Positions 5,988-43,286 of a stretch of 43,286 nt of DNA are shown here, piece after piece. Location: IMG/VR virus record IMGVR_UViG_3300036861_000975, positions 1-43,286 of that record; one strand, given 5' to 3'. The DNA comes from a virus. Position 1 is the first letter of the stretch, and the number at the start of each line of letters is the position of its first letter. The notes below the pieces were generated by a model. That model saw nothing but the letters and a program-made list of their open reading frames with translations, made no database searches and was not told the origin of the DNA. The translations under genes and the position numbers were made by a program.

Positions 5988-6910
5988 CCACGCCGACCCC
6001 TCTCAACCTGCAGCGGCTCACCGAGGCGGACCTCGAGAAGATCGAGCTGCTCGTCGGCAGCCACCCCGCCCGTGAGGACGGCGTGTGCGTCATGGAAGCC
6101 GTGGCCTGGTTCGCGGGGGAGCCGCACACCGACGAGCCGAAGTGCGCGTCCCCCGTCCTGGGCGCCTTCCTGCGCGCGTGGAACGACCGGACCGACGCCG
6201 CGGGCCGGCAGCTGTTGAAGCCGTTCGTGCCGCGGCTGGTCGGAACGGCCGGCAAGGCGGCCGTGGAGCGCCGCCGCGCCTTCATGCTCGTCGACTGGTC
6301 GGTGAGGACCTGCGGGCCCACCTGGCTCCGCGCCGTCGGCCTGAACGACGACGCCGACGTCGTCGCGGCGCTGCCGGAGATCGTCGACAAGGCGACAGCG
6401 AGGAGCGCGGCCAAGGTGCTCGAGCCGATCAGCGAGAGAGCCTGGAAGGTCTACACCGACGCGTGGGCGGAGTTCCGCGAGAAGGCCGACCTCGCCGACC
6501 TCGCCGACCTCGCCGACCTCGCCGACCTCGCCGCCCTCGCCGCCCTCGCCGACCTCGCCGACCTCGCCGACCGCGCCGCCCTCGCCGCCCTCGCCGACCT
6601 CGCCGCCCTCGCCGACCTCGCCGCCCTCGCCGACCTCGCCGCCCTCGCCGCCCTCGCCGACCTCGCCGCCCTCGCCGACCTCGCCGCCCTCGCCGACCTC
6701 GCCGACCTCGCCGACCGCGCCGCCCGCGCCGCCCTCGCCGCCCGCGCCGCCCTCGCCGCCCTCGCCGACCTCTCTCCGGCGGAACGCCAAGCGCTCTACG
6801 ACGAGTTCTACAACGCGGTGCTCGAGAAGCTGCGTCCTGTCGTCGAGCAGCTGCAGGGCTCCGCCCTCCAGCTGCTCGACAGGATGATCGCGGCCGACGC
6901 GGCCGCGTAG
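5984..6910 (+). CDS. Conserved phage protein with a 96-residue A-(D/A)-(L/R) repeat tract
   Basis: 308 residues. Residues about 10-165 match a conserved phage and actinobacterial protein of unknown function (MEAVAWFAGEPHTDEP, ASPVLGAFLRAWND, RRRAFMLVDWSVR). Residues 168-263 are 32 tandem tripeptides of type Ala-(Asp/Ala)-(Leu/Arg), with 17 Asp and 4 Arg variants; a short helical C-terminus follows. The tract should form one long helix with leucines in a stripe. It is not a classical pentapeptide repeat, whose period is five. Function unknown. Confidence 0.75.
   Translation: MTTPTPLNLQRLTEADLEKIELLVGSHPAREDGVCVMEAVAWFAGEPHTDEPKCASPVLGAFLRAWNDRTDAAGRQLLKPFVPRLVGTAGKAAVERRRAFMLVDWSVRTCGPTWLRAVGLNDDADVVAALPEIVDKATARSAAKVLEPISERAWKVYTDAWAEFREKADLADLADLADLADLAALAALADLADLADRAALAALADLAALADLAALADLAALAALADLAALADLAALADLADLADRAARAALAARAALAALADLSPAERQALYDEFYNAVLEKLRPVVEQLQGSALQLLDRMIAADAAA
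6485..6772 (+). repeat. 32 tandem copies of a 9-bp unit, GCC-G(A/C)C-C(T/G)C
   Basis: 288 bases of in-frame tandem repeat. Seven of nine positions are identical in every copy. Only the middle bases of codons two and three vary, so every difference changes the amino acid and there is not one synonymous change. Copies could be gained or lost by slippage without breaking the frame. On the other strand and in other frames it creates long artefactual Gly/Glu- and Arg/Pro-rich reading frames. Confidence 0.95.
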
Positions 6911-9352: not shown

Positions 9353-11070
9353 GCCAGATCCACCTCGGGTTCGAGGTCGGCAGCGGCAAGCCGGTGGCGA
9401 TCCCGCTGCGGCACCTGGCGGTCACCGGCCAGACGCAGGAGAGCGGCAAGACGACGACGCTCGAGGCCCTGGCCACGCGCGCCGGCGTCGCCGTGCTGGC
9501 CTTCGTCACGAAGCGCGGCGAGAAGGCCTTCAGCCTCGGCGCACGCGTCGCCCCCTACTTCCGCGACCGGGCCGACTGGCAGTTCGTCGACCAGCTCATC
9601 TCGGCCCAGCTCTCGGAAAAGAACAAGTGGCTGCGCCAGTGGTTCATCCCGATCTGCCGGACCACGCGCACGCTGGCCGATGTGCAGCGCGCCGTGAGGA
9701 AGGGGATGGAGAAGGCCACCGGCCAGCGCGCCGGCGCCTACGTCCAGCTGGACGCCTACCTCGACCTGATCGTCCCCGAGATCCAGAGCGCGAAGCTGGC
9801 CAGCTCGCTCGAGCTCGGGCCCGGCCTGAACGTCATGGACATCTCGGGCTCGTCGACGCCGATGCAGATGCTCTTCGTGCAGTCGGCGATCGACTGGGTG
9901 AACGCCCAAGCCCGGAACACCGTGGTGGTGGTCCCCGAGGCCTGGGAGTTCGTGCCGGAGGGGAAGGGCTCGCCGGCGAAGGCCTCGGCGATCGCCCTAG
10001 TGAGGAAGGGCGGCGGCATCGGCAACCACATCTGGGTCGACAGCCAGGACATGGCGGGGGTGGACAAGACGATCCTCCGGGGCTGTGCCGTCTGGCTGAT
10101 CGGGGTCCAGCGCGAGGCCAACGAGATCAAGCGCAACCTCGCCAACATCCCCGCCGGCATCAAGCGGCCCTCGGCGGCCGATGTCGCCACCCTCGCCCGC
10201 GGCCAGTTCTATGCGTGCTGGGGACAGCACGCCCTGAAGGTCTACGTCCAGCCGGCATGGCTGGCCACCGAGCAGGCGCGGGCGTTCGCGAGGAGCGAGC
10301 CACCGCCGACACCGCCTTCGAGCGACCAGGTGGGCAGGTTCATGGAGCGCGGCCTGGCCGCGCAGCACGCCGTCGACCGCGAGATCGCAGCGGCACGGCG
10401 GAAGGAGGACCCCTCGATGTGTGAAGAGCACCAGCGGCTCAGCCGCGAGATGGAGGCCCTCACCGGCTCCCTGAAGGAGGCCCAGCGCGCGCTCGTGGCC
10501 GCCGGCGCCGAGGCGGGGCGGCTGCGCATCCGCGCCCAGGCCGCCGACGAGCTGGCGGCCGCCATCGCGAAGCTGCTGCCGACGGGCGAAGGCCTCACGG
10601 CCGCCGCGGCGTCGGTTGACGAGGACGCGATCGTCCGCAAGGTCCTCGCGCGGATCCCGGCCGGGCCCGCTGGGCCTCTCCAGGTCACCCCGCCCGCGAA
10701 GCTGCGGGCCGACTTCCAGCGGGAGGAGGTCGCCCGCATCCTCTCCGCGATCCGTGACCTGTCGCCCCTCCAGAAGCGGATCCTGAAGCTCCTCGAGGGC
10801 CTCGAGGGGCAGCGCTGCTTCCAGAAGAACATCGCGCAACGCCTCGGCCGGCCCACGGGCGGCGACAGCTGGATCCACATGACGACGGCGGTGAAGGGTC
10901 TGGCGTCGGCTGGCTTCGTCGACGTCGACGAGAAGCGCGGCGTCAGGACCAGCGTGCGCGACAAGATCGCCGGCGGCCTCCAGACCTATCAGGCCGCCGA
11001 CGCAGACGTCGAGGCCGTCTACCAGAACGTCCTGTTCGAGATCGCCAATGAGAACGGAGGCCAAGCATGA
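9349..11070 (+). CDS. HerA/FtsK-superfamily ATPase with C-terminal winged helix
   Basis: 573 residues. The N-terminus IHLGFEVGSGKPVAIPL is a typical HerA-like strand, then Walker A GQTQESGKT (residues 27-35) and a Walker-B-like VVVVPEAWEF with Glu197. Residues about 345-400 are coiled coil (EMEALTGSLKEAQRAL), and about 465-540 look like a winged helix (LQKRILKLLEGLEG, IAQRLGRPTGG, LASAGFVDVDE). There is no ATG, GTG or TTG at a usable place: the conserved sequence begins at CTG 9349, in a CTGA overlap with AGGAG six bases upstream. Probable DNA-tracking motor; its partner is likely the adjacent ParB. Confidence 0.75.
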   Translation: MSQIHLGFEVGSGKPVAIPLRHLAVTGQTQESGKTTTLEALATRAGVAVLAFVTKRGEKAFSLGARVAPYFRDRADWQFVDQLISAQLSEKNKWLRQWFIPICRTTRTLADVQRAVRKGMEKATGQRAGAYVQLDAYLDLIVPEIQSAKLASSLELGPGLNVMDISGSSTPMQMLFVQSAIDWVNAQARNTVVVVPEAWEFVPEGKGSPAKASAIALVRKGGGIGNHIWVDSQDMAGVDKTILRGCAVWLIGVQREANEIKRNLANIPAGIKRPSAADVATLARGQFYACWGQHALKVYVQPAWLATEQARAFARSEPPPTPPSSDQVGRFMERGLAAQHAVDREIAAARRKEDPSMCEEHQRLSREMEALTGSLKEAQRALVAAGAEAGRLRIRAQAADELAAAIAKLLPTGEGLTAAAASVDEDAIVRKVLARIPAGPAGPLQVTPPAKLRADFQREEVARILSAIRDLSPLQKRILKLLEGLEGQRCFQKNIAQRLGRPTGGDSWIHMTTAVKGLASAGFVDVDEKRGVRTSVRDKIAGGLQTYQAADADVEAVYQNVLFEIANENGGQA

Positions 11071-12710
11071 GCAGTCAACCTCACGCGCCGGGCGCACCGT
11101 CCGGCTCGTCCGGCGCGTTCCAGTACCTACCGCTCGCGGACCTCCGCGAGTCGCCCCTCAATCCCAGGAAGCACTTCGACCCGGCGAAGCTCGCCGAGCT
11201 GGCCGCGAGCATCAAGGCGAAGGGCGTGCTCACGCCGCTGCTCGTGAGGCCGGTGGCGAAGGGCGCGGCCTACGAGATCGGCGCCGGCCACCGACGGTAC
11301 CGCGCGGCGAACATCGCCGAGATCGACCAGGTGCCAGCCGTCGTCCGGGAGATGAGCGACACGGAGTTCCTCGAGCTGCTCGTGACGGAGAACGACCAGC
11401 GCGAGGACGTCCATCCCCTCGAGGAGGCGGCCGGCTACCAGGCGCTGATGACGAAGGCGGGGTACCCCGTGGAGCGGATCGCCGAGCGCGTCGGCCGATC
11501 GGTCAAGTACGTCTATGACCGCGTTAAGCTGCTGCAGCTCACCAAGGAGGCCCAGAAGCTCTTCCTCGCCGGTCACATGACAGCCGGCCACGCGATCCTG
11601 CTGGCGCGCCTGTCCCCGGCGGACCAGGAGCGGGCGATCGAGGAGCACGGCGCCTTGTTCACCGACGAGCACCTGCTCTTCACTCCGGAGGAGGAGGAGA
11701 AGCTCGAGGTCGACGACGAGCCGCGGAAGCCCCGGAGCGTTCGGGAGTTCGCGGGCTGGATCGACGAGCACGTGAAGCTCGACGCGACCCAGGCCGATCC
11801 CATGCTCTTCCCCGAGATGGTGCAGACCGTCCAGGCGGCCGCCGAGGAGGCCGAGAAGATCGTTCGCATCACCCACGAAATCATGACCCCCGAGGATGCG
11901 AAGGACGGGCAGAAGCTCATCCTCGGCCGGTCGTGGAAGAGGGCCGACGGCATGCACGGCTCGAAGCGCTGCGACCATTCGGTCACCGGCGTCATCGTGA
12001 TCGGTCCCGGCCGAGGGCAGGCTTTCAAGGTCTGCGTGAACAAGGACAAGTGCGCGGTCCACTGGGGCGCCGAGATGCGCGAGCGGCAGAAGCGCGCGAA
12101 GCAGACGGCGACCACCGGCGCCAAGGCCGCCCAGGACCGCTGGAAGCGGGAAGAAGAGCAGCGCGAGCGTGAGCGGGCGCGTGAGGAGGCCGCGCGCCAG
12201 CGTTGGCAAAAGGCCGCCCCGACCGTCCTGAAGGCGGTCGCGGAGAAGGTGAAGAAGGCGGCGGCCGGTCCCAGCGGACCCCTCGCCCGGATCATCTTGG
12301 GCGCCATCAGGAACGAGGGTGCCGGCGCCGCAGCCGCGGCGGCGTTCGTCCCTCGCGGCACGAAGCCCGAGGACCTCGTGCGCCACGTCGCCTTCCTCAT
12401 CCTCCACGGAGAGGCTCTCGACCGCTGGTACGGCCCTCAGCACTTTCCGAAGCGCGCGAAGGAGCTCGGCGTCGACGTTCAGAAGATCCTCGATGAGGTC
12501 GCTCCGACCGAGAAGGCGGCGGCCGTCGTCGCGCGCTGTAAGGAGTGTGGCTGCACCGAGGACAAGGCCTGCCCGGGCGGGTGCAGCTGGGCCGAGGAGC
12601 CGAACAAGAAGACCGGCCTCGGGCTGTGCACCGCGTGCCGGGCGAAGCGGAAGGCGAAGAACCCGCGGGTGAAGGGCGCGCCGCGCCGCGCCGCCCACGC
12701 GTCGGCCTGA
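11067..12710 (+). CDS. parB: ParB/Spo0J-like nuclease-fold and HTH protein
   Basis: 547 residues, larger than typical chromosomal ParB (about 300). Order: ParB N-terminal domain (LADLRESPLNPRKHF, then AASIKAKGVLTPLLVRP, GAGHRRYRAA), the ENDQREDVHPLEEAAGY segment, an HTH (ERIAERVGRSVKYVYDRVKLL), a middle segment with possible metal ligands (RCDHS, CVNKDKC), a Lys/Arg/Glu coiled coil (about 330-395), and a C-terminal cysteine cluster starting at Cys491 (CKECGC, CPGGC, CTAC). ParB proteins bind a centromere-like site and spread using CTP. No ParA is present; the HerA-like ATPase directly upstream (ATGA overlap) may replace it. Confidence 0.85.
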   Translation: MSSQPHAPGAPSGSSGAFQYLPLADLRESPLNPRKHFDPAKLAELAASIKAKGVLTPLLVRPVAKGAAYEIGAGHRRYRAANIAEIDQVPAVVREMSDTEFLELLVTENDQREDVHPLEEAAGYQALMTKAGYPVERIAERVGRSVKYVYDRVKLLQLTKEAQKLFLAGHMTAGHAILLARLSPADQERAIEEHGALFTDEHLLFTPEEEEKLEVDDEPRKPRSVREFAGWIDEHVKLDATQADPMLFPEMVQTVQAAAEEAEKIVRITHEIMTPEDAKDGQKLILGRSWKRADGMHGSKRCDHSVTGVIVIGPGRGQAFKVCVNKDKCAVHWGAEMRERQKRAKQTATTGAKAAQDRWKREEEQRERERAREEAARQRWQKAAPTVLKAVAEKVKKAAAGPSGPLARIILGAIRNEGAGAAAAAAFVPRGTKPEDLVRHVAFLILHGEALDRWYGPQHFPKRAKELGVDVQKILDEVAPTEKAAAVVARCKECGCTEDKACPGGCSWAEEPNKKTGLGLCTACRAKRKAKNPRVKGAPRRAAHASA

Positions 12711-23022: not shown

Positions 23023-23059
23023 AGCCTGCGGCGCTTCGAAAGGAGCGCGCAGGCTTTTT
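23023..23059 (+). terminator. Intrinsic terminator overlapping the protease ribosome site and start
   Basis: AGCCTGC-G-GCGC pairs with GCGC-GCAGGCT (11 pairs, one bulged G) around loop TTCGAAAGGA, then TTTTT (23055-23059). The ribosome site AAGGAG (23040-23045) sits in and beside the loop, and the TTG start (23058) is in the U-run. RNA from the promoter at 22959 would be about 65 bases if it stopped here. Confidence 0.8.
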
Positions 23060-23963
23060 GGCTTCCAGGGCTCTCGACGTACCTGCCAACCTGCTGAGCC
23101 TCGACGACTGGAAGGCGAAGGCCCGCGCCGGCGCGGCGCCCACGGGCGTCGTGCTGCGCAAGCAGTACATCGCCCAGGTCCTGAAGGCTGACGGGGAGAG
23201 CGGCAGCCGCAAGCGCTCCTTCACCATCAGCACCGGCGTCCGCGACCGCGACCGCGACACGCTCGCGGTGGCGGGCTGGGAGCTCGGCAACTACCTCAAG
23301 AACCCCGTCGTGCTCTGGGCCCACATGTACCGCGAGCTGCCGATCGCGCGCGCCTCCGACGTCGCCGTCGTGGGCGACGAGCTGAGGGCCTCGGCGGAGT
23401 TCGCGGGCGCGGACCTCTACCCGTTCGCGGAGACCGTGCTGCGGATGCTCGACGGCGGCTTCCTGCGCGCGGTGTCGGTCGGGTTCAACCCCCTCTCTCA
23501 TTCCTGGAACGACGAGCAGCGCGGGGTCGACTTCCTGAAGCAGGAGCTGATGGAGTACTCCGTCGTTCCCGTACCTGCAAACCCCGAGGCCTTGATGGAC
23601 GCGAAGGCCGCGGGGATCGACGTCGCCCCGCTGCGCGCGTGGGCCGAGCGCGTCCTCGACGAGACGTCAGAAGAGCCCGGGCTGTGGCTCCCCAAGAGCC
23701 GCGTGGAGGAGGCCTTCAAGGCCCTCGCCCCCCGGGCCGTCGCTGTTCCCGGTGCGGGCGCTTCGGAAGCGGCTGGGGCCCATAACCCCGGCGCTCCCGG
23801 TTCGACTCCGGGGCCCGCTACCAACCCCGAGAAGGCGGGCGGCGAGATCGCCGCGGCCGCGCCCTTCGTCCCCGACCTGGCCAGGCTCGAGGCGGTCGTC
23901 CGCTCGAGCGTTTCCGAGGTGGCGCAAGCGCAGGTGAACCGTGCGCTCGGCCGCCTCGACTGA
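23058..23963 (+). CDS. HK97-type prohead protease
   Basis: 301 residues from TTG 23058, chosen because the N-terminal NLLSLDDWKAKA segment belongs to the family and AAGGAG lies 12 bases upstream. Catalytic His89 (WAHMYRELPIA) and Ser140 (FLRAVSVGFNP) are visible, and EYSVVPVPANPEA is the usual family strand. It digests the scaffold and capsid delta domain during head maturation. Residues 239-256 of the linker are encoded by a tRNA-fMet-like 3' half. The C-terminal segment may be scaffold-like. Confidence 0.9.
   Translation: MASRALDVPANLLSLDDWKAKARAGAAPTGVVLRKQYIAQVLKADGESGSRKRSFTISTGVRDRDRDTLAVAGWELGNYLKNPVVLWAHMYRELPIARASDVAVVGDELRASAEFAGADLYPFAETVLRMLDGGFLRAVSVGFNPLSHSWNDEQRGVDFLKQELMEYSVVPVPANPEALMDAKAAGIDVAPLRAWAERVLDETSEEPGLWLPKSRVEEAFKALAPRAVAVPGAGASEAAGAHNPGAPGSTPGPATNPEKAGGEIAAAAPFVPDLARLEAVVRSSVSEVAQAQVNRALGRLD
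23753..23823 (+). other. tRNA-fMet-like sequence embedded in the protease gene
   Basis: Anticodon stem TGGGG/CCCCG around loop CCCATAA (anticodon CAT, 23781-23783), variable loop GCGCT, T-arm CCCGG-TTCGACT-CCGGG, acceptor GCCCGCT, A and CCA (ending 23823) form a full tRNA 3' half. An upstream TGCGGGC (23753-23759) pairs with the acceptor except at the 1:72 position, and GCTT-CGG-AAGC gives a shortened D-arm. Position 33 is C instead of the near-universal U. It resembles initiator tRNA more than a working tRNA gene. Confidence 0.6.
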
Positions 23964-32211: not shown

Positions 32212-32519
32212 CCGCGGCCTTCCAGGCCGAGGCGGCGTCGACCGGCGCCTTCCTTGGACTGCGGCCGTGGGAGACGGGCCGGCTCACGCCGGTGGAGCTC
32301 GGCGAGCTGGCCCACGGGGACCAGCAGCGCTGGAACCGCATCGTCCACCTCGTCGCCTGGGCGCTGGAGATCCTGCCCCTCCAGCTCGCTCAGGGCGTCC
32401 GGGCAGGGATCGCGGCGGCGTTCAACAACCAGGCGCTGCCCAACGAGGAGTGGGAGTGGCTGCTCTCGAAGGCGCCCGGCTATGACCCGAAGCGCCGGGA
32501 CGACGACGAGGAGGACTGA
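32208..32519 (+). CDS. Tail assembly chaperone, frameshifted T domain
   Basis: The -1 frame after the slippery site. A full frameshift product would have 235 residues (121 before the slip, 114 after). The T part begins LTAAFQAEAASTGAFLGLRPW and continues GRLTPVELGELAHGDQQRW, a known tail chaperone pattern. There is no ATG or GTG at its beginning, and a CTG in a CTGA overlap is the only start-like codon, so translation by frameshift is the better explanation. An ATG at 32292 is inside the conserved part. Confidence 0.78.
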   Translation: MTAAFQAEAASTGAFLGLRPWETGRLTPVELGELAHGDQQRWNRIVHLVAWALEILPLQLAQGVRAGIAAAFNNQALPNEEWEWLLSKAPGYDPKRRDDDEED

Positions 32520-43155: not shown

Positions 43156-43173
43156 CCTGCTTCTTCGGCAGGG
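43151..43173. repeat. Inverted partial copy of the attP core and a small hairpin
   Basis: GACACCCTGCTT (43151-43162) is the exact reverse complement of AAGCAGGGTGTC in the attP core (87-98, repeated at 43246-43257). CCCTGC-TTCTTCG-GCAGGG (43155-43173) also forms a small hairpin. It may be an integrase-binding arm site. Confidence 0.5.
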
Positions 43174-43286
43174 GGTGAAGGTCCATGCGATGCCCCGTTC
43201 CGCTGCTAAGATGCTGAGCCGGTGGTGCGTCCCGAGGCCGCTTTTAAGCAGGGTGTCGTGGGTTCGATCCCCACACGGCCTACCAT
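43160..43286. repeat. 127-bp terminal direct repeat, right copy
   Basis: Identical to 1-127, including a second copy of the tRNA-Lys 3' half (43241-43285). Counted once in the circular genome. Confidence 0.95.

Follow-up and report, generated by a model that had tools for sequence, protein, structure and literature searches.

The Rickettsia palindromic elements are structured, RNA-like inserts that are tolerated in-frame inside protein genes; they are not tRNA genes. Among phage tRNAs, the closest described counterparts of the element reported here are the tRNA-Met or tRNA-fMet genes of Stenotrophomonas phage vB_Sm_QDWS359, Janthinobacterium phage Donnerlittchen, and Mycobacterium phages such as Erdmann, which are homologous to it by blastn and covariance model and share its CAT anticodon, its acceptor end of the initiator type, and the GGG:CCC pairs of its anticodon stem. 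These genes are free-standing and full-size, whereas the element is nested in-frame in a protein gene and has a miniature D-arm and a C at position 33. Surviving host anticodon nucleases has been proposed as a role of phage tRNAs (PMC10264068). Initiator tRNA is a known toxin target, being cleaved by VapC toxins between positions 38 and 39 (PMC4105405), and phages are reported generally not to encode tRNA-fMet where VapC-LT2 targets it (PMC10264068).

The element occupies positions 23753-23823 (+ strand) of the window, the whole 43,286-nucleotide stretch of viral DNA analyzed here (IMG/VR record IMGVR_UViG_3300036861_000975). An earlier note, made from the sequence alone, had placed an initiator-like tRNA 3' half at exactly these coordinates, and ARAGORN independently called a tRNA-Met(cat) there (score 100.9, threshold 100). 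The element is, however, full-length rather than a 3' half. From its 5' end it consists of the acceptor strand TGCGGGC (23753-23759), in which T1 is unpaired with T72 while positions 2-7 pair with 66-71; a miniature D-arm, GCTTCGGAAGC (GCTT-CGG-AAGC, 23760-23770), with a 4-bp stem and a triloop containing G18G19, position 8 being absent; the connector GGC; the anticodon arm TGGGG-CCCATAA-CCCCG (23774-23790), with CAT at 23781-23783 and C33 at 23780; GCGCT; the T-arm CCCGG-TTCGACT-CCGGG (23796-23812); and the 3' acceptor strand GCCCGCT followed by A73 and an encoded CCA (23813-23823). All 20 of the 20 pairs in the acceptor, D, anticodon, and T stems are canonical, and the anticodon and T loops have 7 nt each, with only 3 nt in the D-loop. 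As had been claimed, the CAT anticodon, canonical T-arm, A-CCA end, and 1:72 mismatch are present. The mismatch is T.T, as it also is in the tRNAs of three related viral loci (L255, L256, and L276), and a further initiator hallmark is found in the three G:C pairs at 29-31:39-41. The A11:U24 D-stem pair of initiators is absent, with the GCTT/AAGC mini-hairpin in its place. The element fits a phage mini-D tRNA-Met group, which is marked by a D stem of 4 bp with an NGG triloop, a connector of 3 nt, and a length of 71-72 nt. Because position 8 is missing and C33 replaces U33, canonical activity in elongation or initiation is doubtful; the C33 seen in the note is real. The shortened D-arm, which had also been held against a working tRNA, carries no such weight, since phage relatives share it with covarying stems.

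ARAGORN gave 0.055-0.06 false calls per shuffled window, and its call is weak evidence that would not by itself prove a tRNA. A second marginal call in the window, a tRNA-Ser(gga) at 32301-32391 (score 101.6) downstream of a tail-gene ORF, overlies a coding stretch and was judged false. The note had proposed a covariance-model scan as a check. The general Rfam model RF00005 (threshold 29 bits) did not report the element and gave only a tRNA-Sec at 15 bits; this model can miss truncated-D forms such as the present one. Targeted comparison settled the matter. Aligned without gaps to nine cellular initiator tRNAs, the element reached 40 of 59 identities; none of 4000 simulated windows exceeded 37, and a scan of 1.17 Mb of related loci turned up no stretch with at least 36 ungapped identities to cellular initiators. 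A covariance model built from nine cellular initiator tRNAs only (R1) scored the element at 43.1 bits (E 4.4e-10), the next match having 16 bits. In cellular genomes, R1 scores initiators at about 102-105 bits and many other tRNAs at 40-75 bits; it therefore proves a tRNA, not an initiator. A second model (R2), built from eight phage tRNA-Met genes with miniature D-arms and with the element left out, gave 81.5 bits (E 1.4e-16) without any non-standard pair, and only 45-62 bits for cellular initiators. The pattern that retrieved the R2 seeds has 20 bases in common with the element, so that identity there carries no independent weight; the D-arm, the 5' acceptor strand, the variable loop, and the pairing of the other stem bases are independent of the pattern. 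Membership of the element in the tRNA family is well supported.

Relatives were sought by scanning viral contigs. A first pattern, which fixed bases of the anticodon and T arms and part of the acceptor end, found the L255 and L256 tRNAs, which have T1, C7:G66, C33, the GACT T-loop, and the short D-arm in common with the element and are identical to it at 60/71 and 54/71 positions, respectively. A second pattern, in which 20 bases of the anticodon and T arms were fixed, found 28 viral contigs; C33 is present in all 28, yet they were selected by that pattern. Between the element and each relative, 2-8 stem pairs are changed on both sides, and the D stems of the miniature D-arm (4-bp stem, triloop) common to the phage tRNA-Met relatives covary. 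This intact pairing with compensatory divergence suggests that the tRNA was under selection until recently. Many members of the family are ordinary free-standing tRNA genes, some of them in tRNA clusters, and free-standing homologues in isolate phages are annotated as tRNA-Met or tRNA-fMet. When isolate phages were searched by blastn, the element and the L256 tRNA had no match; the L255 tRNA matched, over a shorter length, only the tRNA-Met of Aeromonas phage MQM1. This 72-nt gene (L299:1044-1115) also has a short D-arm and lies inside a tRNA cluster. An R2 scan of 299 genomes from another phylum found no match and is uninformative. An unannotated stretch of haloarchaeal plasmids (Natrinema, Halobaculum, Halorussus, and others; L263:1501-1543) is 82% identical to the element over 44 nt.

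The gene that contains the element (23058-23963, + strand) encodes an HK97-type prohead protease (Peptidase_S78, phrog_80), an assignment made from the Peptidase_S78 domain and the position of the gene between those for the portal protein (PF04860; 21409-22746, + strand) and the major capsid protein (PF05065; 23975-25297, + strand), the latter directly downstream. The element supplies protease codons about 232-256. Along the ORF, GC3 falls from 0.94 in the N-terminal part and 0.88 over the 53 nt that precede the tRNA to 0.62 in the tRNA, and is 0.91 beyond it; no in-frame start codon occurs from the tRNA end to 23919 (95 nt); and the C-terminal segment, a helix downstream of the element, is conserved in-frame in protease relatives. 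Ribosomes must therefore cross the tRNA, and its in-frame nesting in translated sequence is well supported. The peptide is predicted to be a disordered linker: in the AlphaFold model, residues 226-269 have pLDDT <50 and lie between a confident protease domain and the C-terminal helix (274-300). One of the frames through the tRNA always meets a stop, the UAA of CAUAA, and the frame in use gives a linker of Pro, Gly, Ala, Ser, and Thr. The claim that the prohead protease gene contains an initiator-like tRNA-Met, translated as a linker, is borne out. The note had added that unrelated linkers in relatives would make the match a product of chance. Protease relatives do have unrelated linkers without a tRNA, but this does not show chance, because the tRNA family is found elsewhere. 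A capsid-based search for closer relatives of the phage found none, and a protease search found only L002 (56% identity, without the tRNA). The window stands by itself, no close relative being available in which selection on the element could be traced.

The same arrangement recurs in a second, unrelated phage lineage. In L269, L271, and L277, which are identical over the compared part, and in L280, whose protein is 91% identical, the tRNA occupies the same frame within the gene for a 335-337-amino acid protein, directly upstream of that for the major head protein. In this group GC3 is 0.96 between the tRNA and the first possible alternative start, M121, and there is no start codon from the tRNA to M121. 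The L269 and L280 alleles differ at three positions inside the tRNA, all in loops, and by 8.9% outside it, although these numbers are small. Elsewhere, family tRNAs lie between the genes for protease and scaffolding protein in L285, ahead of a protease-capsid fusion in L279, and behind the capsid gene in L264, and at L268:3293-3364 a coding frame (ORF to 3326) terminates on the anticodon-loop UAA of a family tRNA. This placement beside head genes, together with the frame that ends on the UAA, suggests a route by which a tRNA at the protease/scaffold border could turn into a translated linker. At L278:1436-1510, a 127-amino acid ORF traverses, in the same frame, a family tRNA (QAHNLEIAGSTPAPATT) that is followed by no further start codon; this is a possible third nested case. 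L278, L283, L288, and L257, all with AHN...GSTP.PA-type peptides, are possible additional in-frame cases, but they show either a weak coding signal or alternative starts. A search of the open-access literature brought up no description of a phage tRNA nested in-frame.

Dual use is likely: the element is probably a tRNA-Met(CAU) gene of phage type within the region that encodes the disordered linker of the prohead protease, with the same bases used twice. The analysis shows the tRNA family membership, the intact structure, the in-frame nesting in translated sequence, and the recurrence in a second lineage, whereas excision, charging, use in initiation, and resistance to defenses are inferred. 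The element would be transcribed as part of the head-gene mRNA. In a fraction of transcripts it would fold and be excised by host tRNA maturation, with RNase P cutting at T1 and the CCA already at the 3' end. The remaining transcripts would be translated across it, giving the flexible peptide AHNPGAPGSTPGPATN, and the read-through protease would contain a peptide spanning GAHNPGAPGSTPGPATN. The freed tRNA would most likely supply Met/initiator tRNA late in infection and, given its C33 and altered D-arm, may be poorly recognized by host tRNA-cutting defenses. Evasion of such defenses is conjecture. The likeness to phage tRNAs proposed to evade anticodon nucleases (PMC10264068) lies in the changed anticodon loop; compared with the VapC target (PMC4105405), only C33 and the D-arm differ, and evasion would have to stem from one of these, because the A38-C39 site is unchanged. 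Against dual use count the absence of the tRNA from the protease relatives, the missing position 8 and the C33, the lack of an RF00005 report, and the cost of excision, since each tRNA set free would use up one protease mRNA.

The main rival of dual use, possible but on the unlikely side in our estimate, is that a phage tRNA-Met gene that lay, or was inserted, between the protease and scaffold/capsid genes is now a read-through linker with no tRNA activity. The gene order of related head operons, in which the tRNA separates the protease gene from the scaffold gene (L285) or adjoins that of the capsid protein, fits this reading, and the unrelated linkers of the protease relatives agree with it, as do the loss of position 8, the C33, and a length 1 nt below that of most relatives. 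Against such silence stand the 20 intact stem pairs, several of them changed in compensation, and the changes that avoid the stems in the nested L269/L280 case. We consider it quite improbable that the tRNA fold acts without use in translation, whether as an mRNA processing or regulatory element at which cleavage tunes the protease:capsid ratio or as a decoy for tRNA-cutting defenses. That in two lineages the nested copy immediately precedes the capsid gene, and that family copies cluster in head operons, would fit such a role; against it, much of the family consists of ordinary tRNA genes that stand free, in some cases within tRNA clusters.

The attachment site of the phage lies elsewhere. 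Positions 1-127 are repeated exactly at 43160-43286, and the record is therefore probably a complete circle. Each copy of this 127-bp terminal repeat contains a tRNA-Lys(TTT) 3' half (82-126 and 43241-43285, both + strand), the probable attP, which adjoins the gene for a tyrosine integrase (Arm-DNA-bind_3, phrog_1; 248-1735, + strand). The attP core is matched at 43/44 positions, at a contig edge, in the acidobacterial genome G675, and had no match in a search for an actinobacterial host; the host guess is weak for this reason. The phage also encodes a ParB-like protein (ParB_N + HTH_ParB; 11067-12710) and is temperate-looking, and a coding region at 6485-6772 holds about 32 copies of a 9-bp repeat (GCCGACCTC) of frame-preserving period. 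One possibility raised in the note was an old attachment site captured into a gene; here the 3' end of a host tRNA-fMet would have been captured through integrase activity. tRNA 3' halves are frequent attachment sites, and this phage has one beside its integrase; the element, however, is full-length, phage-type, and internal, has no adjoining integrase, and, far from being nearly identical to a host tRNA 3' end, is identical at only 32-35 of 50 positions to the initiators of G675 and related acidobacterial genomes. Since the true attP is the partial tRNA-Lys found at both ends of the window, the element does not represent an att core, and we regard a capture of this kind as highly improbable. 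Chance resemblance within GC-rich coding DNA, which an ARAGORN score at threshold, a second, false call in the window, and an uninformative blastn search of 16 genomes with the 3' half, whose top matches were not tRNAs, might suggest, is rejected by the simulations, by both covariance models, and by the 85% identity to a phage tRNA on another contig; its probability is negligible.

Although tRNA genes are frequent in phages, they are regarded as genes in their own right. In the present case one lies in-frame within an essential structural gene, an arrangement that another lineage repeats, so that tRNA and protein must share the same bases. The element is thus a directly testable case of dual-use tRNA/protein sequence, and it belongs to a phage tRNA class that the general Rfam model can miss. 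We tentatively put forward, as an unlikely but wider form of dual use, a dual-coding gene for a linker and a working initiator-type tRNA, in which excision cuts the protease message shortly before the capsid gene, thereby linking the supply of tRNA to the protease:capsid ratio late in infection, and which would have evolved at least twice in head operons. A suggested reason for siting such a tRNA in the head operon is that Met/initiator tRNA would be made along with the late messages; if excised, the element would be a simple device for trimming one gene of the operon.
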